Shown one piece after another: positions 2-22,203 of a stretch of DNA of 22,203 nucleotides. This DNA comes from Candidatus Woesearchaeota archaeon (GTDB lineage: Archaea > Nanobdellota > Nanobdellia > Woesearchaeales > GW2011-AR15): contig JAMPXQ010000004.1 of NCBI GenBank assembly GCA_023701075.1, positions 1 to 22,203 on the forward strand, read 5' to 3'. A model generated the notes under the pieces. It had not been told where the DNA came from, did not search any database, and worked only from the letters and a program-made list of their open reading frames with translations. The number at the start of each line of letters is the position of its first letter. The stretch's first letter is position 1. Position numbers and translations under genes: made by a program.

Positions 2-874
2 ATGGAGATAAGTGCATTATCCATAGCTTTCACAAGATTATCTATCATGCTGGCAAGGGATGTGAATAGGACAGTGACTCTGACTGTGTCTGCAGTAGCA
101 TTATCAAATTCAACACCAAAGCTCGATAATCATTATCAATACATAAAGATCGGGGAATCAGGCATCTCTTCGCAGGACATAGGCTCAGCAGTAATTCTCT
201 TCAGGGTGGAGAATGGATGGTTGGCAGACATAGAATCAGTCTCTTTATATCGCTATACTGACAAGTGGGACATATTGGATACCCAGAAAGTATCTTCTGA
301 TTCAACGTACACATATTTCAGGTCAAATTCTCCAGGATTGAGCTTGTTTGGCATAGCCGGAGTGAAAAAGATAGTTGAGGAAGCAGAGCCTGATGCAGGA
401 GGGCAGTCGGATGTTACAGGGGCGGTTGCATCAGATAAGAAAGATATCCTGGCACCGGAACGCGAAGTTCCAAAGACAAAGGCTGAATTCTCTTTCTCAG
501 TAGTCTTAAGATATCTGATTGTTGGTATAGTTGTATTAGTCATATTTTCTGGTGTTGGGTTTGCAGTGTATGCAAAAAGTGTCCATAAGGAAGTTGATCT
601 AAGTAGCCTATACAAATACATTGAGGAGTGCAGGAAAGATGGGGTTGAGGAAGAAGCCATAAGGAAAACGCTCATTGATTCAGGTTGGGAAAAAGGGATG
701 GTTGATATTGGCATGAATTCAGTCAGCATAAAGGCAGATTTGGCACCAATCCTGGAATATATAAAAAAAGCAAGGGAAGCAGGGATGAAAGATGATGAGA
801 TAAAGGTGAATCTGCTGGGTGTCGGTTGGTCAATAAAGATGATAAATGAAGCATATGATGGCTTCTTCAAATGA
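2..874 (+). CDS. PGF-pre-PGF domain membrane protein, 5'-truncated
   Basis: C-terminal part of a surface protein. Residues about 35-122 (numbered from the ATG at base 2) match the PGF-pre-PGF domain seen next to archaeal surface-sorting signals: a W-L-x-D-I-E-S-V-S-L-Y-R-Y core, a tryptophan strand (K-W-D-I-L), and an ending G-L-S-L-F-G-I-A-G. A linker follows, then one membrane helix at about residues 170-190. After the helix are two tandem helical repeats beginning L-Y-K-Y-I (residue 203) and I-L-E-Y-I (residue 250), each with a G-(V/M)-x-x-(D/E)-x-I-(R/K)-x-x-L turn and a closing G-W. Such repeats recur at the cytoplasmic ends of DPANN and CPR membrane proteins. The domain is extracellular and the repeats presumably cytoplasmic. 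No signal peptide is visible and the frame is open to the window edge, so the real start is almost certainly upstream and the ATG at base 2 is internal. No PGF-CTERM motif follows the helix, so exosortase-type processing is not supported. Confidence 0.75.
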   Translation: MEISALSIAFTRLSIMLARDVNRTVTLTVSAVALSNSTPKLDNHYQYIKIGESGISSQDIGSAVILFRVENGWLADIESVSLYRYTDKWDILDTQKVSSDSTYTYFRSNSPGLSLFGIAGVKKIVEEAEPDAGGQSDVTGAVASDKKDILAPEREVPKTKAEFSFSVVLRYLIVGIVVLVIFSGVGFAVYAKSVHKEVDLSSLYKYIEECRKDGVEEEAIRKTLIDSGWEKGMVDIGMNSVSIKADLAPILEYIKKAREAGMKDDEIKVNLLGVGWSIKMINEAYDGFFK

Positions 875-875
875 G

Positions 876-882
876 TTTTTTT
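876..882 (+). terminator. T7 run, archaeal-type terminator
   Basis: Seven consecutive T residues lie one base after the stop codon of the PGF-pre-PGF gene, with no stem-loop before them. Archaeal RNA polymerase commonly terminates at such runs. The next gene has its own TATA box, which supports an end of transcript here. Confidence 0.5.
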
Positions 883-920
883 CACTATTGGACCACCCCT
901 TTTAAATCTGTTGGGAAAGG

Positions 921-930
921 TTTTTAAATA
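921..930 (+). promoter_or_regulatory. TATA box of gyrA
   Basis: TTTTTAAATA is a near-ideal archaeal TATA box. A transcript start about 25 nt downstream (near 952) would leave a leader of roughly 20 nt. That leader contains GTGAT (965-969), complementary to the usual archaeal 16S 3' end, five bases before the ATG at 975. Confidence 0.6.
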
Positions 931-974
931 GCCTTATTTTTAAAATTATAGAGGATAAGATAGCGTGATTTTTG

Positions 975-3383
975 ATGGATGAGAATAGGATAATTCCTGC
1001 AGTTATAGAGGACGAACTTAAGACAGATTTTCTAGATTATGCTATGTCGGTCATAGTCTCAAGAGCGCTCCCGGATGTGAGGGACGGTCTGAAGCCGGTC
1101 CATAGGAGAGTCCTTTTTACAATGCTTGAATTGGGTCTTGAGCATGGGAAGCCATACAAGAAATGCGCAAGGATTGTAGGAGACTGTTTAGGTAAGTGGC
1201 ATCCTCATGGTGATTCTTCAGTATATAATGCACTGGTAAGGCTTGCCCAACCTTGGTCGCTTAGGTATCCGCTTATAGAAGGCCAGGGCAATTTCGGAAG
1301 CGTAGATGGCGATAGTGCAGCAGCCATGAGGTACACAGAAGCAAGGCTTGAAAAAGTTTCTTCAGAGCTGCTGGCTGACCTTGAGAAAGAGACAGTGGAT
1401 TTCCAGGATAATTTCGATGGATCTCTCCAGGAGCCGAAGATTCTGCCAAGCAAGATACCTAATCTATTGGTCAATGGATCATCAGGTATAGCAGTAGGCA
1501 TGGCGACAAATGTCCCGCCGCATAATCTGAAAGAGATCTGCAGGGCTACGATAATGGCGATTGAGAATCCGGAAATTACAATTAACGAATTATGTGAAGT
1601 GATAAAAGGCCCTGATTTCCCTACAGGCGGGATTTTGGTAGGCACGAGCGGAATGAAGCAGGCGTACGCTACCGGAAAAGGCATGCTGAAATTGAAAGCC
1701 AAGATAGAGATTGAAGAATCAAAAGGCCGTGTTTCTCTGATAGTGAAAGAGATACCTTATATGCTGAATAAGTCCATGCTGATAGAAGAGATTGCAGAGC
1801 TCGCAAAGACAAAGGTTGTCAGTGAGATTGCAGAGCTTAGGGATGAATCAGACAGGGAAGGCATGAGGATAGTCATAACCTTGAAGAAGGACAGCAATCA
1901 TGAGATTGTGCTAAATCAGCTGCTCAAGCATAGCAGGCTTCAGTCTTCTTATGGTGTCAGGTTCCTCGCACTAGTGAATAACCTTCCTAAGACTTTGAAT
2001 CTCAAATCTTTGATTCACCATCATATCGAGCATAGGGTAGATATAATTACAAGAAAGACGATATTCGAGCTAAAGAAAGCGAAAGAGCGTGCGCATATCT
2101 TAGAGGGTTTGATAATAGCGCTTGATGACATTGATAATGTGATTGCAAAGATAAAAGCATCAAAGAGCGCAGAAGATGCAAGGGACATGCTCACTACAGA
2201 TTATAAGTTGAGCCTTGAGCAGGCAAAAGCGATACTGGATATGAGGCTGCAGAGGCTAGCGGCGCTTGAGCAGCAGAAGATTAGGGATGAGCATGTTGAG
2301 CTCATGAACCTTATAATTGAGCTTGAATCCATCCTTGCAGACAGGAACAAGGTATTGAAGATAATTGTTGCAGAGCAAGAAGAGCTGATTGAGAAATATG
2401 GGGATGAGCGAAGGACGCAGTTGCAGGAAAGCGATGAAGATATTGAGATAATGGATCTGATTCCAGAAGAGGATGTCTGTGTGACAATCAGCCATTCAGG
2501 TTACATCAAGAGGATGGCTCTTGATGAATACAAGCAGCAGATGAGGGGCGGAAAAGGGGTTAGGGGTGCCGAAATAAAGGAAGAGGATTTCTTAGAGCAG
2601 ATATTCATCGCAAACACCCATGCGGATCTGTTGGTGTTTACGAACAAAGGGAAAGTGTATTGGACAAAGGTCTATAAGATTCCGGATGAATCAAGATACT
2701 CAAAAGGGAAGGCCATAATAAATTTAGTAGGCTGTGAGACAGATGAGAAAGTGTCAGCCTTGATACCTATCAAGGATTATGATGCCAATCATTTCTTGGT
2801 CTTTGCGACAAAGCAGGGCCTGGTGAAGAAGACAAGTGTCATGGAATATTCCAAGCCAAGGCAGGGTGGCATATGGGCAATCAACCTCAATGAAGGGGAT
2901 GATGTAGTCGATGTCATCTTGACAGATGGTGTGAAGCAGTTGATCCTGGCGACAAAGAAAGGGAATGCAGTTAGGTTCAATGAGACAGATGTAAGGCCAG
3001 TAAGCAGGCACTCATTAGGTGTTAGGGGCATTAGGCTAAGGAATGATGAAGTCGTAGGCATGGTTGTTGCAGATGAGACAAAGACATTGCTTACAATTAC
3101 AGAGAATGGTTATGGGAAGAGGACACCAGTATCAGACTATAGGTTGATTAACAGGGGAGGAAGCGGCGTCATCAACATAAAGACGACAGACAGGAACGGC
3201 GGAGTCGTTGTCATAAGGGAAGTGAGTGATGAAGACGAACTCATGCTGATATCAGTAGGCGGCCAGGTCATCAGGACAAGCAGCAAGTTTATCTCGGTCA
3301 TAGGTAGGAACACGCAGGGAGTTAGGCTTATGAAGCTGGATGAAGGGGATAAGGTTGCAGATGCAGCAAAGATAGTCGGATAA
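975..3383 (+). CDS. gyrA: DNA gyrase subunit A
   Basis: Breakage-reunion subunit of type IIA topoisomerase; with GyrB it introduces negative supercoils using ATP. The N-terminal winged-helix/tower part is full length: [21 protein letters not shown] near residue 22, H-P-H-G-D-S near 76-81, and the A-A-M-R-Y-T-E box whose tyrosine (residue 120) is the DNA-linking nucleophile (Tyr122 in E. coli). The C-terminal beta-pinwheel has six recognisable blades, and its GyrA-box is Q-M-R-G-G-K-G (residues 522-528; family consensus QRRGGKG), which marks gyrase rather than topoisomerase IV. The 802-aa length is normal. The frame can begin at a TTG at 972, but the ATG at 975 has better spacing to GTGAT. No gyrB is adjacent: the upstream gene is unrelated and ends in a T-run. 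At the E. coli Asp87 position there is Asn. The gene is of bacterial ancestry, as in other gyrase-bearing archaea. Confidence 0.97.
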
Positions 3384-7863: not shown

Positions 7864-9072
7864 ATGAAAGAAGACTTTTGGATTGCATTCCGTAGCCTGA
7901 GCCAAAGGAGGCTTAGGAGCTGGCTCACTATGATAGGCATCTTCATAGGCATAGCAGCAGTCGTTTCTTTGATAGGTCTTGGGGAAGGGCTTAGGATAGC
8001 GATAACTTCCCAGTTCGGTTTCTTAGGTACGGATATATTGAGCATCCAGGCATCAGGGGTGAATTTCGGTCCGCCTGGTCAGGGTGCAGCAAATCCGCTC
8101 GATGATACGCTTATAGACAAGATAGAGAAATTGAATGGCGTGGATACGGCCTTTGGAAGGATAATAAAATCAGGCATATTGGAATTCAAGGATACGCAGT
8201 ATGTAGGCTATGTCGCTTCAGTCCCTGAAGGCCACGATAGGAAAGTCTTTGAGAAGATGGTGAATATAGAGGCAGAAAGCGGCAGGCTTCTTAGGGACAC
8301 AGACAAGAACAGGGTGGTGCTCGGTTCAAGGTTCGCGACTGAGGATTTTTTCGGAAGAGCGGTTGCGACGGGAGATACGATAATCTTGAACGGCAAGGAA
8401 TTTGAGGTTGCAGGCATACTTCTAAAAAAAGGCAGTTTCATCTTTGACGGCGTAGTTTTTGTGAATGAGAATGAGCTTAAGGACTTGTATAATATTGATA
8501 CAGTGACAAGTGTCATAGCAGTGAAAGTGAAAGATGAGCAGCAGATGGATAAAGTGAAAGCGGATATTGAGAAGCTTTTAAGGAAAGAGCGGGATGTGAA
8601 ATTAGGTGAAGAGGACTTCCAGGTAGAGAGTCCACAAAAAGCGCTTGAAGCATTGAATGATACATTGTTTGCAGTCCAGCTTTTTGTATATATCATTGCG
8701 ACAATTTCTTTGGTTGTCGGCGGGATTGGTATAATGAATACTATGTATACTGCAGTATTAGAGAGGACAAAAGAGATAGGCATAATGAAAGCGATAGGTG
8801 CAAGGAACTCAACCATATTCAGGTTGTTCTTCATAGAATCAGGTTTCTTGGGATTGGTCGGAGGAATTATAGGGACACTGTTAGGCATGGGTCTGGCATA
8901 CGGGCTTGCTTTCTTAGGCAGGCAGGCAGGATTTAACCTTCTCCAGGCATCTGTTAGTCCATATCTCATAATAGGGTCGTTATTATTCTCATTCATATTA
9001 GGTACATTGTTTGGAGTCCTTCCTGCAGTCAATGCTTCCAAGATGCAACCGGTGGAGGCGCTCAGGAAATGA
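7864..9072 (+). CDS. FtsX/MacB-type ABC permease 1
   Basis: Membrane subunit of the MacB-type transporter, 402 aa. It has the family's four-helix plan: one helix near residues 18-40 (L-T-M-I-G-I-F-I-G-I-A-A-V-V-S-L) after the R-R-L-R-S-W motif, a long extracellular MacB_PCD-like domain (about 45-265), then three helices near 270-297, 322-345 and 366-388. The FtsX signature E-R-T-K-E-I-G-I-M-K-A-I-G-A starts at residue 300, on the cytoplasmic coupling helix that contacts the ATPase. It ends P-A-V-N-A-S-K-M-Q-P-V-E-A-L-R-K, a usual MacB permease terminus. The stop overlaps the second permease start by ATGA (9069-9072), so the two are probably made in equal amounts and form a heterodimer. Confidence 0.92.
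   Translation: MKEDFWIAFRSLSQRRLRSWLTMIGIFIGIAAVVSLIGLGEGLRIAITSQFGFLGTDILSIQASGVNFGPPGQGAANPLDDTLIDKIEKLNGVDTAFGRIIKSGILEFKDTQYVGYVASVPEGHDRKVFEKMVNIEAESGRLLRDTDKNRVVLGSRFATEDFFGRAVATGDTIILNGKEFEVAGILLKKGSFIFDGVVFVNENELKDLYNIDTVTSVIAVKVKDEQQMDKVKADIEKLLRKERDVKLGEEDFQVESPQKALEALNDTLFAVQLFVYIIATISLVVGGIGIMNTMYTAVLERTKEIGIMKAIGARNSTIFRLFFIESGFLGLVGGIIGTLLGMGLAYGLAFLGRQAGFNLLQASVSPYLIIGSLLFSFILGTLFGVLPAVNASKMQPVEALRK
8734..8792 (+). repeat. 59-nt segment shared with permease 2, copy 1
   Basis: This segment, encoding the coupling-helix region N-T-M-Y-T-A-V-L-E-R-T-K-E-I-G-I-M-K, matches 9933-9991 at 58 of 59 bases, including 50 identical bases in a row. The surrounding parts of the two genes differ much more. 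Confidence 0.85.
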
Positions 9073-10274
9073 GGATAGAATTCATCGGATATGCAGTCTC
9101 GAATATCATACATCGGAAGACAAGATCATTCTTGACAGTGCTCTCTATATTGATAGGCATAATGTCTATATTTGCTCTCATAAGTTTTGGGATAGGCATC
9201 CAGAGATATGTAGATGAAGTCGCAAAAGAGGCAGGCGCAGATAAATTGTTTGTGCAGGCAAAAGGCACTGGGTCGGTGGATGACACATTTGCCATATCAA
9301 AACAGGATCTGAATGTAGTGAAGAAAGTGAAGGGAGTAGAGCAGGCAGTGGGGATGTATATGAAAGTCGCGTCCTTGGAATTCAAGGGTCAGCGCAAGTA
9401 TCATTACGTTATGGGGATGGATCCAAAAGACAACGATTTCGTCCAGGAATCTTTTGGTGTAGATGTTGTGAAAGGGCGAAGCCTTAAGCAAGGGGAGCTA
9501 GGCAAGATAACTGTAGGTTATAATTATCAGTTTGAAGATAAGATATTTTCCAGGGCATTGAAGCTTGGCGACAAGCTTATGATAAATGAAATCCCTTTTG
9601 AGATAGTAGGTTTTCTTACAGAAGTCGGGAATCCGGAAGATGATGCTAACATATACATGACAGACCAGGCGTTTGAATCATTGTTTCCTGAGATGAAGGA
9701 TAGGTTCACAGTAGTGATAGCGAAAGCAGAAAGCACTCAAAATCCAGAGGACTTGGCAGAGAAGGTATCAGAGAAGCTCAGGAAATTCAACGGTCAGGAA
9801 AAAGGGAAGGAGAATTTCGAGGTTCAGACATTTGCAGATGCAGTCAAGACCTTCACGACAGTCATTGGCGTGATAAACGGAGTGTTGATACTTATAGCGC
9901 TCATATCCGTCATTGTGGCATCAGTGAATATCATGAATACGATGTATACTGCAGTATTAGAGAGGACAAAAGAGATAGGCATAATGAAAGCCATCGGAGC
10001 TAGGAATTCAGAGATAAGGGACATATTCCTTCTGGAATCAGGGATATTAGGTCTTAGCGGAGGCATCATCGGCGTCCTCTTTGGCTATCTGGTTGCGTCC
10101 ACTGGTGGAAGCATAGCAAAAGCAGCAGGTTTTTCATCGCTTCAGCCGGTATTCCCTCTGAGCTTGATCCTCGGCTGCTTGGCATTCTCATTGTTTGTAG
10201 GGGCAATATCAGGCTACCTTCCAGCAGTGCAGGCATCAAGGCAAAGGCCGGTAGATGCATTGAGATACGAATAG
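9069..10274 (+). CDS. FtsX/MacB-type ABC permease 2
   Basis: Second permease, 401 aa, paralogous to its neighbour. First helix near 18-40 (L-T-V-L-S-I-L-I-G-I-M-S-I-F-A-L), extracellular domain about 45-262, and three C-terminal helices, with the signature E-R-T-K-E-I-G-I-M-K-A-I-G-A-R-N-S from residue 298. The terminus P-A-V-Q-A-S-R-Q-R-P-V-D-A-L-R-Y mirrors permease 1. The extracellular domains of the two have clearly diverged while the coupling region is almost identical even in codon choice. It is the last gene of the operon; T6 runs follow at 10308-10313 and 10354-10359. The pairing with one ATPase gene implies two copies of the ATPase and one of each permease per complex, by analogy with MacB-type systems. 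Confidence 0.92.
   Translation: MRIEFIGYAVSNIIHRKTRSFLTVLSILIGIMSIFALISFGIGIQRYVDEVAKEAGADKLFVQAKGTGSVDDTFAISKQDLNVVKKVKGVEQAVGMYMKVASLEFKGQRKYHYVMGMDPKDNDFVQESFGVDVVKGRSLKQGELGKITVGYNYQFEDKIFSRALKLGDKLMINEIPFEIVGFLTEVGNPEDDANIYMTDQAFESLFPEMKDRFTVVIAKAESTQNPEDLAEKVSEKLRKFNGQEKGKENFEVQTFADAVKTFTTVIGVINGVLILIALISVIVASVNIMNTMYTAVLERTKEIGIMKAIGARNSEIRDIFLLESGILGLSGGIIGVLFGYLVASTGGSIAKAAGFSSLQPVFPLSLILGCLAFSLFVGAISGYLPAVQASRQRPVDALRYE
9933..9991 (+). repeat. 59-nt segment shared with permease 1, copy 2
   Basis: Second copy of the coupling-helix segment; see 8734-8792. The single mismatch is G at 9941 against T at 8742. Confidence 0.85.
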
Positions 10275-11295: not shown

Positions 11296-12606
11296 TCAAA
11301 TGATTTCAACACTGTCACCATCATCCAACAGATGGACATGTTTTTCATCATATCCGATTTCTAGGGCAAGTTCTTTCATATGTATTGTTTTCTCTTTGCC
11401 GGCGTGTGCAGGTATGATGTGTTGTGGGCCTATCAATTCTATGAACTTCTTATGGTCCTGCCTGCTTGCATGTCCGCTTGCATGCACATCTCTAAAGACC
11501 TGGACATTTCTGCTGAGCAGATTTTCATCAAGGATTTTCCTGTTCTCGATGTTTAGCTGGCTTGGGATGACAGTGCATGAGAATATCACTTGGTCATTTT
11601 CACCTAATGGGAACTCAAGTTCGCCGTTGACGATTTTTGAGAGGACAGCGTCAGGTTCACCCTGATGCCCGGTGCATATCACCAGGTATTTGTCCTTTTC
11701 ATATGCAATGTCTTTGAGCATCTTGACCATCTGTTTCTTGAAATTGCATATCTTTGCTTTCTTTGAGAAATCAACAAGCTTGATGTCTTCAGCAGCATAG
11801 ACATATCGTCCAAGGCTTCGTCCAAGCATCACAGGCTGCCTTTTCATCTTTATGCTAAGTTCAAGTATTGTTTTGAGCCTGGCGATATGCGATGAAAAAG
11901 TTGTGACAACAACCGCTCCTTTGGTAGGATTTCTCAGCATGACTTCACTGAGCATCTCTTTTGCAACCAGTTCAGAAGGGGTTTTTCGGTCAAGATTGGC
12001 ATATAGTGAATCGAGTATCAACGCTTTTACATTTTTTAGAGATTTCAACCGTTCATAATCTGGCGGGTTCCCGAAAGTCGGCGTGTCATCAAGCTTGAAA
12101 TCATTTGCATAAACAACCTTCCCATCAGGGGTATGTATGACAACTATGGCAGCATCAGGGATGCTGTGTGTTATATCTATGAATTCAATGGTTATGCTGT
12201 CAGTTAGTTTTGTTTTCCTGCTTGTCACTATCTCATTTGGCAGTCCTTTTTTCTTGTCTCTTAGGATAGATTTTATGACCGAGGCAGTATATGGTGTGCA
12301 GATTATCGGACAGTCATATTTCTGTGCCATGAAAGGTATCGCGCCGATATGATCAAGATGCCCATGACTGGGTATTATCCCTATGACTTTGTCTTTAAGA
12401 TGATTTATGCATCTGTCATCAGGCACAGCCTTTGCATTCATCAGCTGTTTCAGTGAGAAGTTTTCAATCTCATCTTCTCCTTTCATCATGATGTAATTTT
12501 CTAGATGAATTCCCATATCTAGGATGACAACTTCATCATTATACCTGACAGCAGTCATGTTCCTTCCTATCTCAGAGTAGCCGGAAACACCTATGATTTC
12601 AATCAT
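11296..12606 (-). CDS. Archaeal ribonuclease J (beta-CASP nuclease)
   Basis: Metallo-beta-lactamase/beta-CASP RNase of the RNase J family, 436 aa, expected to act in mRNA decay and processing as a 5'-3' exonuclease with two zinc ions. Metal motifs are complete: motif II H-G-H-L-D-H (81-86), motif III His147 in T-H-S-I-P-D, motif IV Asp169 in A-N-D-F-K-L-D, beta-CASP motif A Asp199 in L-I-L-D-S, motif B region V-H-A-S-G-H-A-S (His375, His379) and motif C His401 in P-A-H-A. T-T-F-S-S-H (235-240) and T-G-H-Q-G-E (312-317) are RNase J-type substrate-site segments. It lacks the long C-terminal domain of bacterial RNase J and has no KH domains, which argues against the CPSF73-like archaeal group. 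The ATG follows an AGGAG ribosome site (12611-12615 on the plus strand) by four bases. Confidence 0.92.
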   Translation of the reverse strand: MIEIIGVSGYSEIGRNMTAVRYNDEVVILDMGIHLENYIMMKGEDEIENFSLKQLMNAKAVPDDRCINHLKDKVIGIIPSHGHLDHIGAIPFMAQKYDCPIICTPYTASVIKSILRDKKKGLPNEIVTSRKTKLTDSITIEFIDITHSIPDAAIVVIHTPDGKVVYANDFKLDDTPTFGNPPDYERLKSLKNVKALILDSLYANLDRKTPSELVAKEMLSEVMLRNPTKGAVVVTTFSSHIARLKTILELSIKMKRQPVMLGRSLGRYVYAAEDIKLVDFSKKAKICNFKKQMVKMLKDIAYEKDKYLVICTGHQGEPDAVLSKIVNGELEFPLGENDQVIFSCTVIPSQLNIENRKILDENLLSRNVQVFRDVHASGHASRQDHKKFIELIGPQHIIPAHAGKEKTIHMKELALEIGYDEKHVHLLDDGDSVEII

Positions 12607-12675: not shown

Positions 12676-15600
12676 GTGGGGAAATCTCAAGTAACATTAG
12701 CCATAATCGTAGGTTTAGTTATTGTAATCGCGCTAGGTGTCCTTCTTGCAGTCGTTTCAAATAGGGACAATATCTCATTAGGGTCTTCTTCAGAGGATGC
12801 ATACACAACAGTGACAAAGCAGAATGATCTGGATACCTACATATTTTCATGCCTTAAGAAGACAGTGATTAATGCAGAGATAGAGTATGGGCTAAATAGG
12901 CAGGTCTCCCCTCCATTGATAAAGCAATATATCCTATCCAAGCTCCCTGTCTGCCTTGATGATTTCAAGACATTCAGGAATCAGGGTTTCAATGTGGAGA
13001 AAGGGGAATTAGGTATTGATGTAGAGATAACACAGCAGTCATTGGTTGTAGAGATGAGCTATCCTCTGACATTCACAAGCAAGGATTATGTATTGTCTTT
13101 TGATTTCAAGACATATACTATACCACGAGTAGTAGTTGAAGAATTGAACCAGAAAGGCCAGACAAAGGTTGTCTCCTCTGATGGCATGATGATAATAGAG
13201 GTTCCTCCTGGGACAGTTGCGACATTGGATGGAGAAGCAGTAGAAGAGATAGGCATAAAGATATTGGATAGGGAGTTTGACGGGCTGTCAAATTCAGTCT
13301 TGACAGGCATGTTGGCATATTCAGGCATACCTCATGGGGTCCAGTTCAGTAAACCTGTGAAGGTCACATATTTCTATGACCAAAGCAAGGTTCCTGTATA
13401 TTATAATGAGAGCATGCTTAGCATTGGCTATTATGATAAGGCGATAGGTGTTTGGGTCGGCCTTCCTACAGAAGTTGACCCGGATAGGAATAAGATAACG
13501 ACGTATACGACACATTTTTCACAATATGCATCTGTAAAAGACTGTAAGGCAGATCCAGAAGCAAAAGGATACCTTAGGACACCGACTTTGGTTAGAGAGG
13601 ATTGCCTGCCGTGCGAACAAGGATGGGATAATCAGGATGCGACAGGCTATCTGTATTCATATATTCCGACTGCAGATGAAAAGGTCATAGATGATAACGG
13701 GTATCCTGTTCCATTGTCAGCAATACCTGCAGCAGAGGTTCCACCGACAGGGACATCAGCATCACCGCCGGCAGCAGTGGCAGTAGCAACTGGTTTTGTC
13801 CCAGAGTGTCTGAAGACATTCCCTAAAGGGACAGATTATGAAGATAATATCATTGAGATGGAAGAAGATGCAAAATATGATGTGATTCCACCAGCGCCTG
13901 AAGCTCCAGCTTCAGGAACACCGAGTGCTGAAAATCCTGTTAAGGGTGCTCTTCTTGATAATGATAGAAGAGTAGAATGTTCTGCACTAGGTGGGGTTCT
14001 AGTTTATGAATTTAATGGAGAATTAAAACTGTGTATTGGTGATATGTTATATACTGATCAGGTTAAGATAAGCGACTGCATCTGCCTGCCGCCAGTCTAT
14101 TATTATGATGTCACTAAGATGGAAGACCTAAAAGGCCAGAATGAGTATAAGGTCGTGTTCAAGGCAAGCGGAGACTCATGCATATCCACAGACTCAGCAA
14201 AGACATTCGCTTTGATTGATGGGACAACAGAATTTGAAGACGGAAAATCTCAGATAATTATAACGCCTGTCTGTTCAAAAGGCGATGATTGTAGTATCTT
14301 GAAAGAGGCGGATTTCCCAGGGAAAGGCCCAAAATTTGTTCCTGAAGAGTTAAGTGATAAGGATAAGACAAAATACCCTACATTGACTTTTAATGTCGAG
14401 GTAAAAAACAAGCAGAAAGAAGAGGCATGCATAGAAGCATACGCAGTATTAGAGTTCCAGGGGATAGGCGGCATAGATGCAGAGTATATCTGCGGAGAGG
14501 AGAACAAGGATAAGATTGATTTCGTTAAAGGCGAATGCAGAAAATGTCAGAAAGATGAAGCAGATGGCCTATACAAATGGGTGACAGCGACAGGGGATCA
14601 GTGCTATACTGGAACTACTTGTTCTCCATCACTAAGAGGCATCGTAAGATTGGAAGGCATCACTTGCCAAGTATGTTCAGGTACAGGTACATGGGAAACA
14701 GATACTACGGGGCAAGCATGTACTCAGGCATGCAAGGATGAAGAGTTATACAACGAAGCGTCTTCGCCGGATCCTGCAGCGACAGAAGTAGATCCTCTTG
14801 CAGATCAGTCTTCAGCGACAGAAGCGGATCCGCTTGCAGAGCCGCCTCCTGCTGGTAATGTTGTAGCATATCCGAGCAGGAAAGACAGTATCACGGGAAA
14901 GGTAGGCGGGATGGACGCAGTGACTGGAAACATAATTAAAGAATTTTGTTGCTCACCAAATTGTCCAGCATATACTGTTCCGGGTTTTGATGTTTATTGT
15001 AAAGAGAAAAATGGAGATTGTCCGACAGATAAGAATTTAATTTGCCAAATTGATGTTCCTGCAGATTATGGCACTCCGGCTTCAGTTACACCAACTCCAG
15101 TAGGTTCAGGCACACCTCCTCCAACTTCAGGAACCCCATTGCCTACAAGTACAGGGACAGCAACACCTACCCCAACAGCAGGCGGAAGTCCAACAGTTCC
15201 AGTCTCATTTGAAAAAAAGGAGAATGGAGAAGAATGCAGTCTACATAGGGAATGTTTATCTCTTTTTTGTGCATACGATGAATCAAATAGCAAAAAGAAA
15301 TGTAGCGATAGATTGGAAAATGGTGAAATATGTACAGAAGATATAGTGTGCAAATCAGATAGGTGTGATCATGCTGGTGGCAATCTGCTATGTATGGAGC
15401 GTCTTGCAGCAGGAAGTTTCTGCACGGAAAATTCAGATTGTTTAAATTATAATTGCCAAACATATCTGGTTGGATTAGGGGGATGGTGTATTGATTCACT
15501 AGAGCCAAATCTTGATTTATGTGATGATTGGACAGAATGCGAATCAAGAAATTGCCAAAATCATGCATGCATGCCCAGAAAAGAATTTGGATCTACATGC

Positions 15601-18513
15601 AATGATGACGATATGTGTTTTTCAGAGTATTGTATTAATAATGTATGTGCTAAAGGTTGTGAACCTACTGCTTTAAGTTTATGTACTAGGGATGAAGCAT
15701 GTATTGTCGCTGGTGGAAGCTGGGATGGTACAAAATGCGGTGGCGGAAGCGGAAGTAATAGTGTGCAATGTAATTTTGATGCATCCGAGTGTACGACAGA
15801 AAAGCATCCTGAATGTAAGCCATGCACTATCTGCGATGGCGGATTTCAATGTAAAGGGATAGATGAAGTGTGTTGTGATTCAGTTGCAGTCTCAAATAAT
15901 CGTTGTCTTGTGGTAGATTCTTCATTAGCACCTACTACGGATCCGACGCTTACGACACCAACAACAGTGGATTGCATCTTGAACCCATCAGATCCATCAT
16001 GTACGCCGCTTGGCACAGTCCCAGTGACGCCGGGTGTTATACCTCCGGTGACGCCAGGCACAGGCACTACATGCACAACAGATGAAGACTGTGCAGACGG
16101 TCAGAAATGTGTAGATGGCATATGCCAAGACAATGGCGGCGGCAATAACAACTGCTATGAAGGAGACATAACTGAAGTTTGTCCGGGTGTAGATTTGGCG
16201 CCTTATTATGGGAAGACTTTTACCATTGCAGATAAGTCTGTATTAGATACGAGGAACCAGAAATTATGCGATGAATATGGTGATTTCCCAGGTGATTTCT
16301 ATGGCAGCGATGTAGCACTCAAAGATGTGCCTTTGAAGATATTTGAGAAAGGGGCATCTTCTTGGCCTAATCAGGTATATGGTGCAGAATGCTGGGTGCT
16401 TGTCGAAGCGCAGAAATCAGGGGATGATGGTAAGCCGGATTTCTATGTACGATATACAGACATAAAAGATTATCTTGGCGGCGGGAAGGCATGTGAGGAA
16501 GACGATGATTGTGACAAGGGATTTGTCTGCAAGGACAACATCTGTGTCAAGGATGTCATAGATGTAGATGTCGAGATAGAGCCGTTGATTGGGATATCTA
16601 TGTTGCCGATAGATGATTTTCCGGAGGCTAAGAAATTTAATGCCAGGACTGTAGGGTATTTCGGTTCAGATTTAGATGATGCTATTTCAAAAGCAGAATC
16701 AGAGAATCTTGAACTTTTTGTTTCTTATACAGGAGATATAGATGATATGGTGGAAGATTCTCAAGTGACAGGTTATATGATGGCAGGGGATGACTGCAAG
16801 GATTCAAAGCTGTTCAAAGATAATCTCGATGATTACGTATCGGATTACGAAGAGTTTAGGAAGACAAACAAGAAGACGCCGGTCATAAGGAATCTAGGGG
16901 ATCTGGAATGTGCAGAGGATTACATTGATAAGGCGAAAGGCAAGGTTGCAGATATCATCATGTTTGACATCACTTATGATGATTTCCAAGATACAGCAAA
17001 GCCGGATTATATATATAAGCAGAAGAAAAAGGCAGCCCAGCTAATCAAGAAAGCTGGTGAAGAAGGATGGGAAGCATTTGCCATTGTCCCTCAGGTTGTC
17101 GTGGATACAGAAGAAGGCATAGCAACTTCAGGATGGATACAGGATGTAGGCAAATTATTGGTTGAAGATTCCAAGATAGATGGTAAGGTTGTGAAAGATG
17201 TCTTTTATGGTATAGTATATTCTCCATGGAATGGAGGCACAGGAGAGGCTATAGAAGAAGTGAAAGTCGCTTTTATGTCAAACCAGCCAAAGGACAATGC
17301 AGAAGTATTGGCTTTGATAAAAGAAGAGAAGGCAGATATGATAGTCCATATAGGTAACATGGGATATGAAGATGCAAAAGACTGGAAATCTATGCTATAT
17401 GGCACATTAGGTGAGAAGGACGGGACAAAGACAAAGCTCCTGCCATATCTTCCTATAAAAGGGGAAGAAGACAGTCCATATGAAGAAAAGCCGATAAAAT
17501 GGTCTGGTTATCAGTCAGTCTTCAAGTCAATTTTGGAATCTGCAGAGATGAAAGAGAAAGGGTTCAAATGCACATACAACAGTGCGACGATGATAGGTGA
17601 GAAGATGGTCTGTACCTATAAGAACCTTTATTTCATAGTATCAGGGCTGGGTTTCCCGCCATTGGTTGAGGATCAGGAGACATTCATAAAGAGCGCTGCA
17701 GAGATGAGTACAGATGCTTGGAAGATATGTACATGGCATAAGTCCAATGCCAACCTGAAGGTTGGAGATAAGCTTGAGTCAGCAGCAAGGAAATATTATC
17801 AGGCGTGTATAGATAATAGTGCAATTGTTGTCAATGGATATGAGCGTAATTACGCAAGGACAAAGACAATAACTGATTTGAACATAAAATATGATGAGGA
17901 CAATGCTGAGATAAGGACGCCTATACTGGTCACCGGTGAGGCAGATAAGATTACTCTTGCAAATAAGAAAGGTCTTGTGATAAATTCAGGGCTTGCAGGA
18001 GGTTCAACGCCATATGATTTGGTGAATCATGCTGCAGATGACTGGTGGGCAAGCTATGTAACTCCGAATAGGTATATGAAATCAGGCGTGGTCCAGGAAG
18101 CTCCGATTTTTGGGAATGGTGCGCTCTTCATGACATTTAATGCAGACAAGGATTCAAACAAGGCAAGAGGGGAATTCAAGGCAAAGATAATGGGCGAAGT
18201 GAAAGTGCTTGATTCCTTTGAGATAACAAGGAGCATAACACAGGAAGTCCCTACATATATCTATGATGTGAAGGATTCGCAGGCGTATATAGATGCATTC
18301 AAGTATGTGTTTGACAAGGCTAAAAAAGCTTTTGTCGAGATAGACAGATGCGCTACAGATTTTACAGAATGCAGCACGAAGTCAGAATGTGAAGCAACAG
18401 ATTTCTTATGGGATGATGATAATGAGGAATGTGTGCAGTGTTTTGACGTAGAAGATTGCTGTGAAGATTGCGATGATATGGTATGCGAAGACAATGCATG
18501 CCAAGATAAATAA
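12676..18513 (+). CDS. Giant cysteine-rich multidomain surface protein 1
   Basis: Unrecognised 1945-aa exported protein. N-terminus M-G-K-S-Q-V-T-L plus one hydrophobic helix (about 8-27) acts as anchor or class III-like signal. Residues ~160-285 form a ZU5-like beta domain (D-G-M-M-I-I-E-V-P-P-G-T; closing H-F-S-Q-Y-A). A beta module at ~474-606 carries G-D-S-C and G-D-D-C. A Pro/Thr linker (~797-842) precedes five Dickkopf-like cysteine repeats (Cys854-Cys995). A conserved module (1160-1272) with C-W-V-L-V-E-A-Q and D-F-Y-V-R-Y is followed by one more cysteine unit (1273-1289). Residues ~1293-1890 are a large alpha/beta domain, possibly TIM-barrel-like, and the tail (~1891-1945) is cysteine-rich. 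The GTG start is forced by an in-frame stop at 12658 and by alignment with the next protein's M-K-K-A-Q-V-S. The many cysteines imply disulfides outside the cell. Adhesion, surface coat or host contact are possible; none is shown. Confidence 0.85.
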   Translation: MGKSQVTLAIIVGLVIVIALGVLLAVVSNRDNISLGSSSEDAYTTVTKQNDLDTYIFSCLKKTVINAEIEYGLNRQVSPPLIKQYILSKLPVCLDDFKTFRNQGFNVEKGELGIDVEITQQSLVVEMSYPLTFTSKDYVLSFDFKTYTIPRVVVEELNQKGQTKVVSSDGMMIIEVPPGTVATLDGEAVEEIGIKILDREFDGLSNSVLTGMLAYSGIPHGVQFSKPVKVTYFYDQSKVPVYYNESMLSIGYYDKAIGVWVGLPTEVDPDRNKITTYTTHFSQYASVKDCKADPEAKGYLRTPTLVREDCLPCEQGWDNQDATGYLYSYIPTADEKVIDDNGYPVPLSAIPAAEVPPTGTSASPPAAVAVATGFVPECLKTFPKGTDYEDNIIEMEEDAKYDVIPPAPEAPASGTPSAENPVKGALLDNDRRVECSALGGVLVYEFNGELKLCIGDMLYTDQVKISDCICLPPVYYYDVTKMEDLKGQNEYKVVFKASGDSCISTDSAKTFALIDGTTEFEDGKSQIIITPVCSKGDDCSILKEADFPGKGPKFVPEELSDKDKTKYPTLTFNVEVKNKQKEEACIEAYAVLEFQGIGGIDAEYICGEENKDKIDFVKGECRKCQKDEADGLYKWVTATGDQCYTGTTCSPSLRGIVRLEGITCQVCSGTGTWETDTTGQACTQACKDEELYNEASSPDPAATEVDPLADQSSATEADPLAEPPPAGNVVAYPSRKDSITGKVGGMDAVTGNIIKEFCCSPNCPAYTVPGFDVYCKEKNGDCPTDKNLICQIDVPADYGTPASVTPTPVGSGTPPPTSGTPLPTSTGTATPTPTAGGSPTVPVSFEKKENGEECSLHRECLSLFCAYDESNSKKKCSDRLENGEICTEDIVCKSDRCDHAGGNLLCMERLAAGSFCTENSDCLNYNCQTYLVGLGGWCIDSLEPNLDLCDDWTECESRNCQNHACMPRKEFGSTCNDDDMCFSEYCINNVCAKGCEPTALSLCTRDEACIVAGGSWDGTKCGGGSGSNSVQCNFDASECTTEKHPECKPCTICDGGFQCKGIDEVCCDSVAVSNNRCLVVDSSLAPTTDPTLTTPTTVDCILNPSDPSCTPLGTVPVTPGVIPPVTPGTGTTCTTDEDCADGQKCVDGICQDNGGGNNNCYEGDITEVCPGVDLAPYYGKTFTIADKSVLDTRNQKLCDEYGDFPGDFYGSDVALKDVPLKIFEKGASSWPNQVYGAECWVLVEAQKSGDDGKPDFYVRYTDIKDYLGGGKACEEDDDCDKGFVCKDNICVKDVIDVDVEIEPLIGISMLPIDDFPEAKKFNARTVGYFGSDLDDAISKAESENLELFVSYTGDIDDMVEDSQVTGYMMAGDDCKDSKLFKDNLDDYVSDYEEFRKTNKKTPVIRNLGDLECAEDYIDKAKGKVADIIMFDITYDDFQDTAKPDYIYKQKKKAAQLIKKAGEEGWEAFAIVPQVVVDTEEGIATSGWIQDVGKLLVEDSKIDGKVVKDVFYGIVYSPWNGGTGEAIEEVKVAFMSNQPKDNAEVLALIKEEKADMIVHIGNMGYEDAKDWKSMLYGTLGEKDGTKTKLLPYLPIKGEEDSPYEEKPIKWSGYQSVFKSILESAEMKEKGFKCTYNSATMIGEKMVCTYKNLYFIVSGLGFPPLVEDQETFIKSAAEMSTDAWKICTWHKSNANLKVGDKLESAARKYYQACIDNSAIVVNGYERNYARTKTITDLNIKYDEDNAEIRTPILVTGEADKITLANKKGLVINSGLAGGSTPYDLVNHAADDWWASYVTPNRYMKSGVVQEAPIFGNGALFMTFNADKDSNKARGEFKAKIMGEVKVLDSFEITRSITQEVPTYIYDVKDSQAYIDAFKYVFDKAKKAFVEIDRCATDFTECSTKSECEATDFLWDDDNEECVQCFDVEDCCEDCDDMVCEDNACQDK
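15064..15207 (+). other. Pro/Thr/Ser/Gly-rich linker in giant protein 1
   Basis: Encodes about 45 residues almost entirely of P, T, S, G, A and V, with recurrent T-P and P-T dipeptides. It looks like an extended, probably O-glycosylated stalk between the cysteine-rich middle and the Dickkopf-like repeats. The paralog has no equivalent here but has a polyglycine tract farther on. Confidence 0.65.
15235..15660 (+). repeat. Five Dickkopf-like cysteine repeats in protein 1
   Basis: Units of the form G-x-x-C-x5-C-x-S-x-x-C, each followed by a further cysteine, have first cysteine codons at 15235, 15331, 15421, 15520 and 15598, giving spacings of 96, 90, 99 and 78 nt. Most begin after an L/E-x-x-G-x pattern. 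The copies have diverged in DNA sequence, so this is an old protein repeat rather than a recent DNA duplication. Confidence 0.75.
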
Positions 18514-18535
18514 TTATGATTAGGAATTAATATTC

Positions 18536-18544
18536 GAGGGAGGG
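18536..18544 (+). promoter_or_regulatory. Strong ribosome binding site of giant protein 2
   Basis: GAGGGAGGG lies six bases before the ATG at 18551 and decides that start. No clear TATA box is present in the 37-bp gap after protein 1, so the two genes are probably cotranscribed. The first gene lacks such a site, so the two are initiated differently. Confidence 0.6.
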
Positions 18545-18550
18545 AATCAG

Positions 18551-21500
18551 ATGAAAAAAGCTCAGGTATCTATGTTTATCATAATCGGCATTGTAATAGT
18601 GATTGCTATCACAGGATTTTTTGTAAGCCGTTTCTCATCGCAGAGGAACACGATGCAGACATCATCAGAGAGCTTTTTTACTGCAGGGACTAACCAGAAC
18701 TCCCTGGAAGCATTCATAAGCGAGTGTCTCAAGCAGACAGTCATAGAAGGAGAGCTGAAATATGGCCTGCATTATTCTATCTCACCTCCATTGATAAGGC
18801 AGCATATACTTGATAACCTCCCGGTATGCATAAACGATTTCAGTGGTTTTAGGACAAGGGGATATGATGTTGAATATGGCGAACTGAAAGCAGAAGTGAA
18901 GGTGACATTCGAGGCTTTAGTAGTAGATGTCAGTTATCCGATAACACTTACTAAGAATGAGGTAGTGATTAATTTTGACAAGCAGACATATACCTATCCA
19001 AGGACTGTGATGGAAAAGATAAAACCTACTGAAGTGACAAAGGTAGTATCTCCTGACGGCAGCCTGATTTTGGAGATTCCGCCAGGGACAACAGCCAGTT
19101 TGAACGGGCAGATAATAGATGAAGTAGGATTAAAACAGCTGGATAGGAATTTCAATGGGTTCAATAATGGTGTCTTGGCAGGCATGTTGGCATTTAACGG
19201 TATGCCGCATGGAGTTAAGTTCTCACAGCCGATAACGATCACAAAGTTCTACAAGGATGAGGATTTGAAAGGGATACCTGAAGATAAGTTGTCTGTGGCG
19301 TATTTTGATGAAGATATGGAAATGTGGTTTGCTTATCCGACTGAATTAGATGCAGAGAAGAATAAATTGATGATAAAGACGGATCATTTTAGCGTTACTG
19401 GAGCGACATTGTTTTGTACAGAAGGTCAGGAATATAAGTTTAATACTGGATTATTGGTCAAAGAGTATTGCAACGAATGTACGGGATGGAAAGATGTACC
19501 TGCAGATTTCATACAAGGTGCCAATATATGGAGCCAGTCTGCAAGTAGGGGATATGGGATTGGTGAGTTTGATGTAGCATGTATTGAAGCATTTGAACCG
19601 GTTCCTGGGACAGGTTGCAGCTCTAAGGTATGTCCGACAAATTGGATTGGAGAATGTACCGAGGGAGTTGAGGCATGCGTCAATCCAGGTACTCCTGAAG
19701 AAGAATGTTCAACAAGTTATGTGGATCCATGTACTCCGACACCTAAAGTTGCACATTATCTAAAGCCTGATTTTACAGGAACAATGGCAGAAGAATATAC
19801 TATCTCTTTTAAGGATGATGGGGATTCATGTGATCAGATAACAAAAGATACTGAATTTGTTCCTGAGATAGCAATAATTCCATCAATAGGAGAAGCAGGT
19901 GCAGCAGCAGAAGGAAGCGCGATTGTAGATTTCAAGACAGGCTGTTCAGAAGGGGATGATTGTAAAGGCACGGCAGAATGGAATCAAGAAGCTGCAGAGT
20001 TCAAGATAAAGACCTATTCTATCAAGAATATGCAGACTACAGAAGTATGTGCTAATGGATATGCAGAAATAACATTCAAAGGATTTGGTATCAATGAGGC
20101 AGATTCTTATTATACTTGCAGTGGTCCAACAGAAAACAGTGGGCCAAATGTTGCTAATGTCCCAGATTTAGGTGGTTCAGATGCAACAAATTTGTTTCCA
20201 GCAGCATGTACTTGTGATCCTGCTAATCCAACCATATGTAAGATGGAGCCTATTCTAACTGATAATACTTGTAATGAAGAAGGTAAATATGGGAAAAGTG
20301 GCGGTGTCTGTCTGCAGTGTGGTGGAGGAAAATGGGGTGTCTGTGGCGATCAATCTAAATGTGGTGCATGTGAAGAGATAAAAGCTGCAGAAGCTGAATC
20401 AGAAAACGCACCAGCAATCTCTAATTCAGGATGGCAAAAGGTCAGAAACTTTTTGGCCGCTACAGGATTAGTTACACAGGAGTTCGAAGGAGCAGAAGAT
20501 TGTGCAAAAAATCCTCCAGGCACAGGGACAAATGATTGTCCGACAAAATGCGAAGGCGCAACACCTATTTGTGAAAATGGTGTCTGTGTAGCTGGTGGTT
20601 TAGGTAACGGAGGCGGCGGAGGCGGAGGCGGCGGAGGCGGAGGCGGCGGAGGCGGAGGCGGAGGCGGCAATAGGCCTAACTGCGATACCGTCAAAGGCAC
20701 AGAAAAGAAATGTCCGGAAGATATATTCGATGACATAAATGGTCAGTCTTTCAAGGCGACAAGCGGTCTTGATACAAGGACCAAGGATTGGTGTGATGTA
20801 GGAGATTTCCCAGGAGACTGGGGACTGAGCCAAGACGTCGATCTGAAGATATTTGGTTCAGGAGAAGCAGCAGGTGTCTGTTGGCTTCTTGTTGAAGCGC
20901 AGCAGAAAGTTGACGGATTCATGCCGGATTTCTATGTCAGGTATGATGATGTGAAAGATATGATAAAGGTCGCGCCTAGGTCATGTGAGAAGGACGCAGA
21001 CTGTAAGGAAGACGAGATCTGTCAGGACAAGATATGTGTGAAAGCATGTAAAGAAGATAAAGATTGTAAGGATGGACAGGTATGCGTAGATAAAGGGTGT
21101 ATCAATGATACAATAGATAGGCAGGTCAAGATATCTCCTATAATTGGATTTGTCGATGTTCCGACAACAGAATTTAGCGAGGCCAAGAAATTAGAGCCGC
21201 TTTCAGTTGGATACTTCGGAAAGGAAGTAGACACAGCAGTCTCAGCAGCAAAAGCAAGCGATCTTGATCTCTTCATCAGGTACACCGGAGACCCGGATGG
21301 CATGAAGGAAGATGATGCCTTGAAAGGATACTGGCTGGTGGATAATGATTGTGAGAAAGAGAAGCTTAAGATTGATGATCTCATAAAGGTCTATGCAGCT
21401 GCAAGGAAGACCAATAAGAAGACACCTATCATGATGAATTTCAAGGACTTGAAATGCGCTCTTGATTATGTGGATCTTGATAAGGATGGTAAGAAATTCA

Positions 21501-22203
21501 CAGATATTGCGATGTTCATGGTGACAGAGGACCAGCTCAAGGATGCTGAGTACATTACTAAGCAAAAAGATCTGGCAAAGAGCATCATGGAGAAGGCCAA
21601 AGAGAAATATGATGGCAAATTCGCGATAATCCCGATATTGGATGTGAGTACAGCAGACGGGCTTAGGGATGCAGCATGGATAAAGACTACAGGCGAATCA
21701 TTGCTTGGCGATGATTATAGAGGCATAGTGATAGGTCCATGGAGAGATGCATCTGTAGAGATGAGCGAGGTCAAGGTAGCATTCATCGCAAACCAGGTAA
21801 AAGACGACCCTGTAGTCATTCAGATGATAAAGGATGAGAAGGCAGATATGGTTGTCCATCTTGGGAATTATGGTTATGATGAAGCCAAGGACTGGAAACT
21901 GTTGGTCGAGACTCTTGATGATGTTAGCGGCACAAAGAGGAAGAATATGCCCTATATCGGAGTCAAGGGCACGAATGACAAGCCTGAGAAATGGTCAGCA
22001 TATCAATCCTTGTTTGATACAAGGATAAAGGCTACAGAAGGCCTCAAATGCGCATACAACAGCGTCTCTATGGTTGGAGACAAGATGGCTTGCACATACA
22101 AGAACTTGTACTTTGTATTGTCAGGAGTAGGCCAGCCGCCTTATACCGAAGGCCAGGAGGGCTTCATAAGGGATAATATAGGGCTTGAGACAGAGGCATG
22201 GAA
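18551..22203 (+). CDS. Giant cysteine-rich surface protein 2, 3'-truncated
   Basis: Open frame of 1217 codons that runs off the window end; no in-frame stop was found on reading it through. It is a tandem paralog of the preceding protein. M-K-K-A-Q-V-S-M-F plus a hydrophobic helix aligns with M-G-K-S-Q-V-T-L-A, and the N-terminal region aligns almost without gaps to the H-F-S motif (His279 here, His280 there). Shared modules: ZU5-like (~160-282), G-D-S-C/G-D-D-C module (402-523), CW-x-L-V-E-A-Q module (from Cys711; P-D-F-Y-V-R-Y), and the start of the large alpha/beta domain (from ~852: S-V-G-Y-F-G, Y-T-G-D, K-A-D-M-V-V-H-L-G). Differences: the middle is much shorter, lacking the five cysteine repeats and Pro/Thr linker; a 20-residue polyglycine tract (687-706) stands before the CW module; and two Dickkopf-like units (812-850) replace one. 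Probably membrane-anchored, facing outside. Function unknown. Confidence 0.85.
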   Translation, partial: MKKAQVSMFIIIGIVIVIAITGFFVSRFSSQRNTMQTSSESFFTAGTNQNSLEAFISECLKQTVIEGELKYGLHYSISPPLIRQHILDNLPVCINDFSGFRTRGYDVEYGELKAEVKVTFEALVVDVSYPITLTKNEVVINFDKQTYTYPRTVMEKIKPTEVTKVVSPDGSLILEIPPGTTASLNGQIIDEVGLKQLDRNFNGFNNGVLAGMLAFNGMPHGVKFSQPITITKFYKDEDLKGIPEDKLSVAYFDEDMEMWFAYPTELDAEKNKLMIKTDHFSVTGATLFCTEGQEYKFNTGLLVKEYCNECTGWKDVPADFIQGANIWSQSASRGYGIGEFDVACIEAFEPVPGTGCSSKVCPTNWIGECTEGVEACVNPGTPEEECSTSYVDPCTPTPKVAHYLKPDFTGTMAEEYTISFKDDGDSCDQITKDTEFVPEIAIIPSIGEAGAAAEGSAIVDFKTGCSEGDDCKGTAEWNQEAAEFKIKTYSIKNMQTTEVCANGYAEITFKGFGINEADSYYTCSGPTENSGPNVANVPDLGGSDATNLFPAACTCDPANPTICKMEPILTDNTCNEEGKYGKSGGVCLQCGGGKWGVCGDQSKCGACEEIKAAEAESENAPAISNSGWQKVRNFLAATGLVTQEFEGAEDCAKNPPGTGTNDCPTKCEGATPICENGVCVAGGLGNGGGGGGGGGGGGGGGGGGGGNRPNCDTVKGTEKKCPEDIFDDINGQSFKATSGLDTRTKDWCDVGDFPGDWGLSQDVDLKIFGSGEAAGVCWLLVEAQQKVDGFMPDFYVRYDDVKDMIKVAPRSCEKDADCKEDEICQDKICVKACKEDKDCKDGQVCVDKGCINDTIDRQVKISPIIGFVDVPTTEFSEAKKLEPLSVGYFGKEVDTAVSAAKASDLDLFIRYTGDPDGMKEDDALKGYWLVDNDCEKEKLKIDDLIKVYAAARKTNKKTPIMMNFKDLKCALDYVDLDKDGKKFTDIAMFMVTEDQLKDAEYITKQKDLAKSIMEKAKEKYDGKFAIIPILDVSTADGLRDAAWIKTTGESLLGDDYRGIVIGPWRDASVEMSEVKVAFIANQVKDDPVVIQMIKDEKADMVVHLGNYGYDEAKDWKLLVETLDDVSGTKRKNMPYIGVKGTNDKPEKWSAYQSLFDTRIKATEGLKCAYNSVSMVGDKMACTYKNLYFVLSGVGQPPYTEGQEGFIRDNIGLETEAW
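20609..20668 (+). repeat. GGA/GGC codon repeat encoding 20 glycines
   Basis: Sixty bases of GGA and GGC codons only, built mainly from three copies of the 15-mer GGAGGCGGCGGAGGC plus a variant fourth. It encodes 20 consecutive glycines, is far more G+C-rich than its surroundings, and lies between a cysteine-rich part and the CW module. Slippage by whole codons would change linker length without breaking the frame. Confidence 0.95.

Follow-up and report, generated by a model that had tools for sequence, protein, structure and literature searches.

The gene pair at the locus

Two adjacent giant genes occupy the last part of a 22,203-nucleotide stretch of DNA from a Candidatus Woesearchaeota archaeon (order Woesearchaeales; GenBank assembly GCA_023701075.1, contig JAMPXQ010000004.1), here called the window, which spans all 22203 bases of contig C15 in an assembly of 1.26 Mb that is 76% complete. 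Their products are modular and cysteine-rich (92 cysteines in gene 1 and 47 so far in gene 2), and begin with a hydrophobic helix and a predicted ZU5 domain with an HFS motif near its end; farther along lie a TIM barrel and a purple-acid-phosphatase fold devoid of its metal ligands (Table 1). We propose, as an explanation that we favor while holding it to be evenly poised, that they are ZU5-based, probably self-cutting surface proteins whose pseudoenzyme payload would bind a ligand of another cell.

An earlier note, made from the letters and their open reading frames (ORFs), had presented adjacent frames of 1945 and over 1217 amino acids as paralogs. The frames are as it described, the second having 1217 residues and being still open; its protein is cut by the assembly, because the window is the whole contig. 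The genes are true paralogs: BLASTP aligns their N-terminal parts with 135 of 300 positions identical (45%, E 2e-79), their C-terminal parts with 228 of 519 (44%, E 4e-118), and their GDSC modules at E 3e-4, so that the lack of relatedness by alignment that would have undone the note's proposal did not materialize. They lie on the same strand with an intergenic gap of 37 bp and a GGAGGG stretch 5' of the ATG of gene 2, while the GTG of gene 1 coincides with the beginning of the conserved anchor in the anchor alignment. The note's view that the architecture is a lineage-specific family without a full-length named counterpart agrees with our searches: relatives recur across genomes of the lineage, Pfam gave no match at cut-off and NCBIfam none at E 0.1, and no significant PDB sequence match was obtained for gene 1 (none at E 1), the phosphatase domain, the payload, or the anchor or ZU5 profile.

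Table 1. Positions in the window of the two genes, their domains and motifs, and the divergent neighbor
Feature	Position	Residues	Strand	Basis or remark
Gene 1, ZU5-anchored modular protein	12676..18513		+	1945 residues, GTG start
N-terminal hydrophobic helix, presumed membrane anchor	12682..12759	3-28	+	predicted helix; conserved in anchor alignment
Helical pair with C59 and C93	12820..12981	49-102	+	predicted helices 49-71 and 78-102
ZU5 domain, gene 1	13123..13542	150-289	+	
H280-F281-S282, gene 1	13513..13521		+	putative autoproteolysis site between F281 and S282
GDSC/GDDC module, gene 1	14131..14541	486-622	+	local profile, E 9.3e-38, row is one of 8 seeds
Cysteine-rich array, Dickkopf/EB-like units (C-x5-C-x4-C...)	15235..15663	854-996	+	gene 1 only
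CW-x-LVEAQ module, gene 1	16150..16485	1159-1270	+	alignment A8
TIM-barrel domain, gene 1	16585..17223	1304-1516	+	predicted structure; TIM-barrel and glycoside-hydrolase matches
Degenerate purple-acid-phosphatase/metallophosphoesterase domain, gene 1	17251..18240	1526-1855	+	
Gene 2, paralog	18551..22201		+	ATG start, at least 1217 residues, frame open at window end
ZU5 domain, gene 2	18992..19423	148-291	+	alignment with gene 1
HFS motif, gene 2	19385..19393	279-281	+	putative site between F280 and S281
GDSC module, gene 2	19790..20182		+	E 1.5e-29, row is one of 8 seeds
CW-x-LVEAQ module, gene 2	20678..20986		+	alignment A8
TIM-barrel domain, gene 2	21110..21763		+	alignment A4
Degenerate metallophosphoesterase domain, gene 2, start only	21764..22201		+	both aspartate positions asparagine
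Divergent neighbor, RNase J/beta-CASP-like	11296..12606		-	named by eye, from no search
Divergent neighbor, further loci	L046:12098-13435, L047:15372-16694			

The ZU5 base and its putative cut site

In the organization that we envisage, the N-terminal helix would hold each protein in the membrane, with the rest outside the cell, a location suggested by the anchor together with the many cysteines. The base would comprise a helical pair and the ZU5 domain, the pair being pinned by a presumed disulfide between C59 and C93, each of which is kept in 83 of the 84 rows of the anchor alignment. The ZU5-like domain of the earlier note stands as a predicted fold: the top matches of the anchor model, which was built from 6 aligned sequences, are ankyrin ZU5 domains, which are not known to be cut. 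As a sequence match it found no backing, since Pfam, searched to E 1, did not return PF00791 (ZU5). Also widespread in the class is an abbreviated anchor, made up of the membrane helix and about 75 residues, which occurs in frames about 250 and 650-800 amino acids long.

An H-(F/L)-(S/T) motif precedes the last strand of the domain, with S282 of gene 1 as the sole residue between predicted strands 273-281 and 283-288. Across the 79 rows of the family that cover the site (6 of the 85 do not; 26 rows built the alignment profile), HF[S/T] is found in 55 and H-x-[S/T] in 64, and the cut position is S or T in 68, as against 14% over all columns. Each ZU5 domain of PIDD is followed by a cut at HF/S, whereas CARD8 and NLRP1 are cut at SF/S with a required serine, and the CARD8 motif lies in a loop immediately ahead of a long strand, as set out in the relevant part of PMC3210808; the placement of the motif in the gene 1 model agrees with that of CARD8. 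It is mainly this conservation and the likeness to PIDD, CARD8, and NLRP1 that lead us to expect self-cutting, and the ZU5 domain probably cleaves itself at the positions in Table 1. As in PIDD, a cut at HF/S would leave the outer part held only by the last strand, or releasable.

Several observations weigh against this proposal. In addition to the silence of PF00791 noted above, a search for it in the window's own genome gave 0 matches, but the controls were also silent; searches with the anchor and ZU5 profiles produced no convincing PDB sequence match, the recurring weak one being IC97/Casc1 (8glv_AE), which is in the fold list too. The mean predicted local distance difference test score (pLDDT) of the anchor model is 44, and within the ZU5 domain it is 66-82 over residues 151-200, only 37-70 over 201-290, and 50-67 near the motif. 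IC97, a protein of like fold, shows THLA at the place of the motif, in a weak alignment, so the histidine and the hydrophobic position after it may have a structural part. Further, among the 18 members whose payload domain scores over its cut-off (see below), 17 cover the site and six of these are without H-x-[S/T] (L055, L015, L016, L058, L132, and L133), indicating no fixed link between release and hydrolase payloads.

The ZU5 domain could then be a structural base only, as in ankyrins, and the proteins permanent, uncut adhesins or envelope proteins. The ankyrin matches, the 15 of 79 rows without H-x-[S/T], and a size and cysteine content suited to a stable stalk would fit this possible, if rather doubtful, account, which has more difficulty with the excess of S and T at the cut position, the H and F that precede it in most rows, and the predicted place of the motif before a strand, parallel to the CARD8 loop (PMC3210808, in the part cited).

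Outer modules and a degenerate payload

Beyond the self-cutting base that we favor, the outer part would consist of cysteine-rich spacers, the CW-LVEAQ module, and the two payload folds. The earlier note rightly placed GDSC/GDDC and CW-x-LVEAQ modules in both proteins. Its Dickkopf-like units, held to be common to both, form an array in gene 1 only, where Pfam has no Dickkopf match and a single EB-module match below cut-off (E 0.0059); in gene 2 its place is taken by a glycine run and, over 812-850, by short C-x5-C units. The GDSC profile matches 16 of the 85 anchor members, eight of them its seeds, and 0 reversed sequences. The CW-LVEAQ module, also present in a GH25 lysozyme protein from another family of the order, looks mainly beta in the predicted model, and our guess is that it is related to bacterial SH3.

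The large alpha/beta domain of that note exists, but as two domains, the TIM barrel and the metallophosphoesterase fold, with the payload of gene 2 being 48% identical to that of gene 1 (alignment A4). The predicted structure of the latter domain has the purple acid phosphatase (PF00149) fold, while the metal ligands of PF00149 (D, GD, GNH, H, GHxH) are missing from the window type: both aspartates are asparagine in 5/5 rows, GNH is lost in 5/5, and GHxH in 4/4 of those reaching that far; the middle histidine is kept in 3/4. A search with the phosphatase-domain alignment matched 1096 proteins, and among the best 120 listed the ligands are intact in 114. Protein searches with the whole of gene 1 and with residues 1290-1880 returned nothing at E 0.001. 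In the barrel, no acidic position directly after strands 4 and 7 is common to all five aligned relatives, the strands being placed from the predicted structure and five rows being few. The phosphatase fold has lost its active site, and the barrel probably likewise; weighing against this, the payload could still catalyze via other residues.

One such case would be an active ectoglycosidase with an unrecognized active site in the barrel and the phosphatase fold as an accessory, which the glycoside-hydrolase matches of the barrel and the clan-A-like glycosidases on the same anchor elsewhere (weak, below-cut-off Pfam matches) would suit; with no acidic position kept in all of the few rows after strands 4 or 7, we deem it improbable. 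The consistent replacement of metal ligands in a retained fold, together with the existence in the order of relatives with intact ligands, might instead speak for a decoy or inhibitor pair, that is, pseudoenzymes competing with or regulating active paralogs or host enzymes. No partner was found, and any payload relative occurs in only 7 of the 352 genomes of the order, with the window-type form in three genomes of one genus, making this a very unlikely alternative. We return to binding or attachment as the most likely role, favored because the metal ligands are lost and no acidic position after barrel strands 4 and 7 is fully kept: the outer part would bind, with no catalysis, a ligand such as a glycan or phosphorylated polymer on the surface of another cell. 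In G001, which belongs to the same genus, anchor and payload are split between two adjacent genes and the payload gene appears to have its own signal peptide, an arrangement that fits a payload acting apart from the anchor.

A metallophosphoesterase with intact ligands is encoded at L148:991-3069 (+); the part after it matches GH42 weakly and by eye is a glycosidase-like barrel, giving a domain order the reverse of the window payload. Around the gene pair, the divergent neighbor is kept in G001 (55% identity) and in G002 of the same genus (61%), and in both it adjoins relatives of the giant genes, so the arrangement is found in three genomes. Two MacB-like permeases (window 7864-10274) are also kept in G002 (66% and 57%), and DNA gyrase subunit A lies at window 972-3383 (+) (PF00521, PF03989).

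Relatives on the same anchor and their meaning

The window genome has at least nine full copies of the anchor family. Pfam was run on 81 of the 85 anchor ORFs (those at L060 (two), L095, and L119 lay outside the scan), and in 18 of the 81 an enzyme or HINT domain scored over its cut-off, making 10 types when every protein is assigned to a single one: M23 (four, one with Amidase_2), NAGPA (four, of which one has in addition a DSP-type phosphatase: PTP-NADK at 29.3 over 27, Tc-R-P just under cut-off), C39-like (three), and GH25, NlpC/P60, GH99, PT-HINT, Beta-lactamase2, CHAP (26.1 over 26), and 3D (one each). Eight of these belong to GH25, NlpC/P60, M23, CHAP, and 3D, which we take to be bacterial-wall-cutting families; for the window proteins themselves, Pfam searched to E 1 gave no known wall-cutting domain. 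In the remaining 63 scanned members, no enzyme or HINT domain was noticed over cut-off. Thrombospondin type 3 repeats, or else a beta helix, are present in other members, and below-cut-off cargo includes two GDSL, one SLT, and several clan-A-like glycosidases. The PT-HINT pretoxin domain of the anchor protein L056:2064-5852 (-) (residues 660-784, E 4.7e-12) links the family to polymorphic-toxin processing. Beside two anchor paralogs, L012:3-2156 (+) (own genome, C81) encodes a cysteine-rich protein with a below-cut-off Peptidase_M64 match and, by eye, an HExxH-type motif; L013:3897-5936 (+) (own genome, C147), a large protein adjoining an anchor paralog, has below-cut-off MopE-like and thrombospondin type 3 matches.

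In a quick tree of 84 anchors (37 of 81 inner branches being open forks, with a long-branch warning), the window anchors fall in an 11-row group with 99% support, where the GH25 protein of G094 and the C39 protein of G005 are among their nearest relatives. The G094 pair shares the GDSC and CW-LVEAQ modules, so that its GH25 member approximates the order of the window proteins with a lysozyme as head; this GH25 domain matches the muramidase 1jfx (E 1.3e-34). Rampant swapping of payloads was considered and rejected: the 36 rows with a payload label (15 labels in all, a part of them given by eye or from below-cut-off matches) need 17 changes against a minimum of 14, with no shuffled control, and payloads mostly track anchor clades. 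The names GH19-like, Zn-peptidase (HExxH), and RNase J were assigned by eye. Likewise rejected was the idea that the peptidoglycan hydrolases of the order have this anchor as their platform. M23 is present in 152 of the 352 genomes, and from 20 chosen regions with long M23 frames, 0 of the 17 ORFs with both M23 motifs by pattern match the anchor profile, a point that tells against our proposal, though four M23 members carry the anchor; the M23 places G206, G233, and G114 in the region list are anchor-bearing members identified earlier.

That the same anchor carries wall hydrolases and a pretoxin HINT makes cell contact more likely than sheath building. Of the surface role put forward in the earlier note, binding or attachment at a likely surface location thus survives and the sheath recedes; that first reading had missed the HF[S/T] motif, what the alpha/beta domains are, and the hydrolase- and HINT-bearing relatives.

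Zhang et al. (2012; PMC3482391), in the part concerned with ZU5, proposed that this domain stands at the base of bacterial toxins and of large surface proteins that bear glycohydrolase, lipase, and phosphodiesterase domains; NlpC/P60 is among the enzyme domains of ZU5 toxins, and a table lists Euryarchaeota for the ZU5-associated TcdB/TcaC pathway. The family described here has in common with these an N-terminal, presumed self-cutting ZU5 base, a large modular outer part, enzyme domains, and, in one member, HINT. It differs in belonging to DPANN archaea and in its single membrane helix with a two-cysteine helical pair, and the window pair carries pseudoenzymes with no recognized toxin domain. 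PIDD and the FIIND (ZU5-UPA) proteins CARD8 and NLRP1 have the same ZU5 fold with HF/S or SF/S at the domain end, but they are apoptosis and inflammasome proteins of animals in which, per the same part of PMC3210808, self-cutting is proven, whereas here it is predicted. The GAIN domains of adhesion G-protein-coupled receptors are animal domains, less similar than the ankyrin ZU5 domains and different in topology. Peptidoglycan hydrolases have been recorded in 175 of 3,706 archaeal genomes, prominently in Nanoarchaeota (PMC12352652), and predatory, 'vampiristic' Woesearchaeota have been proposed, with murein transglycosylases reported in Woesearchaeota (PMC9723730); the portions of these two reports used here mention no ZU5-anchored family, and the window pair has no such hydrolase. 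In the open-licence literature, we found nothing linking ZU5 with DPANN; the accessible portions on ZU5 and archaea describe no DPANN family, and a search on GAIN, archaea, and autoproteolysis gave only off-topic results.

More generally, and tentatively, the DPANN archaea of this order may display a multi-copy, self-cutting ZU5 base with releasable cell-contact modules (wall hydrolases, HINT, and pseudoenzyme heads), an archaeal counterpart of toxin and adhesion-receptor release by ZU5, directed against other microbes or serving attachment to them. The finding would extend to DPANN archaea the ZU5 autopeptidase-type surface proteins, of which the accessible literature describes mainly bacterial and animal examples. 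In the window payload, a phosphatase fold has clearly become a pseudoenzyme, probably on the cell surface. How DPANN archaea recognize and exploit their partners is poorly known; the enzyme-bearing relatives point to the envelopes of other microbes, and the ZU5 base, with its precise predicted cut site, is a testable part of such a system.
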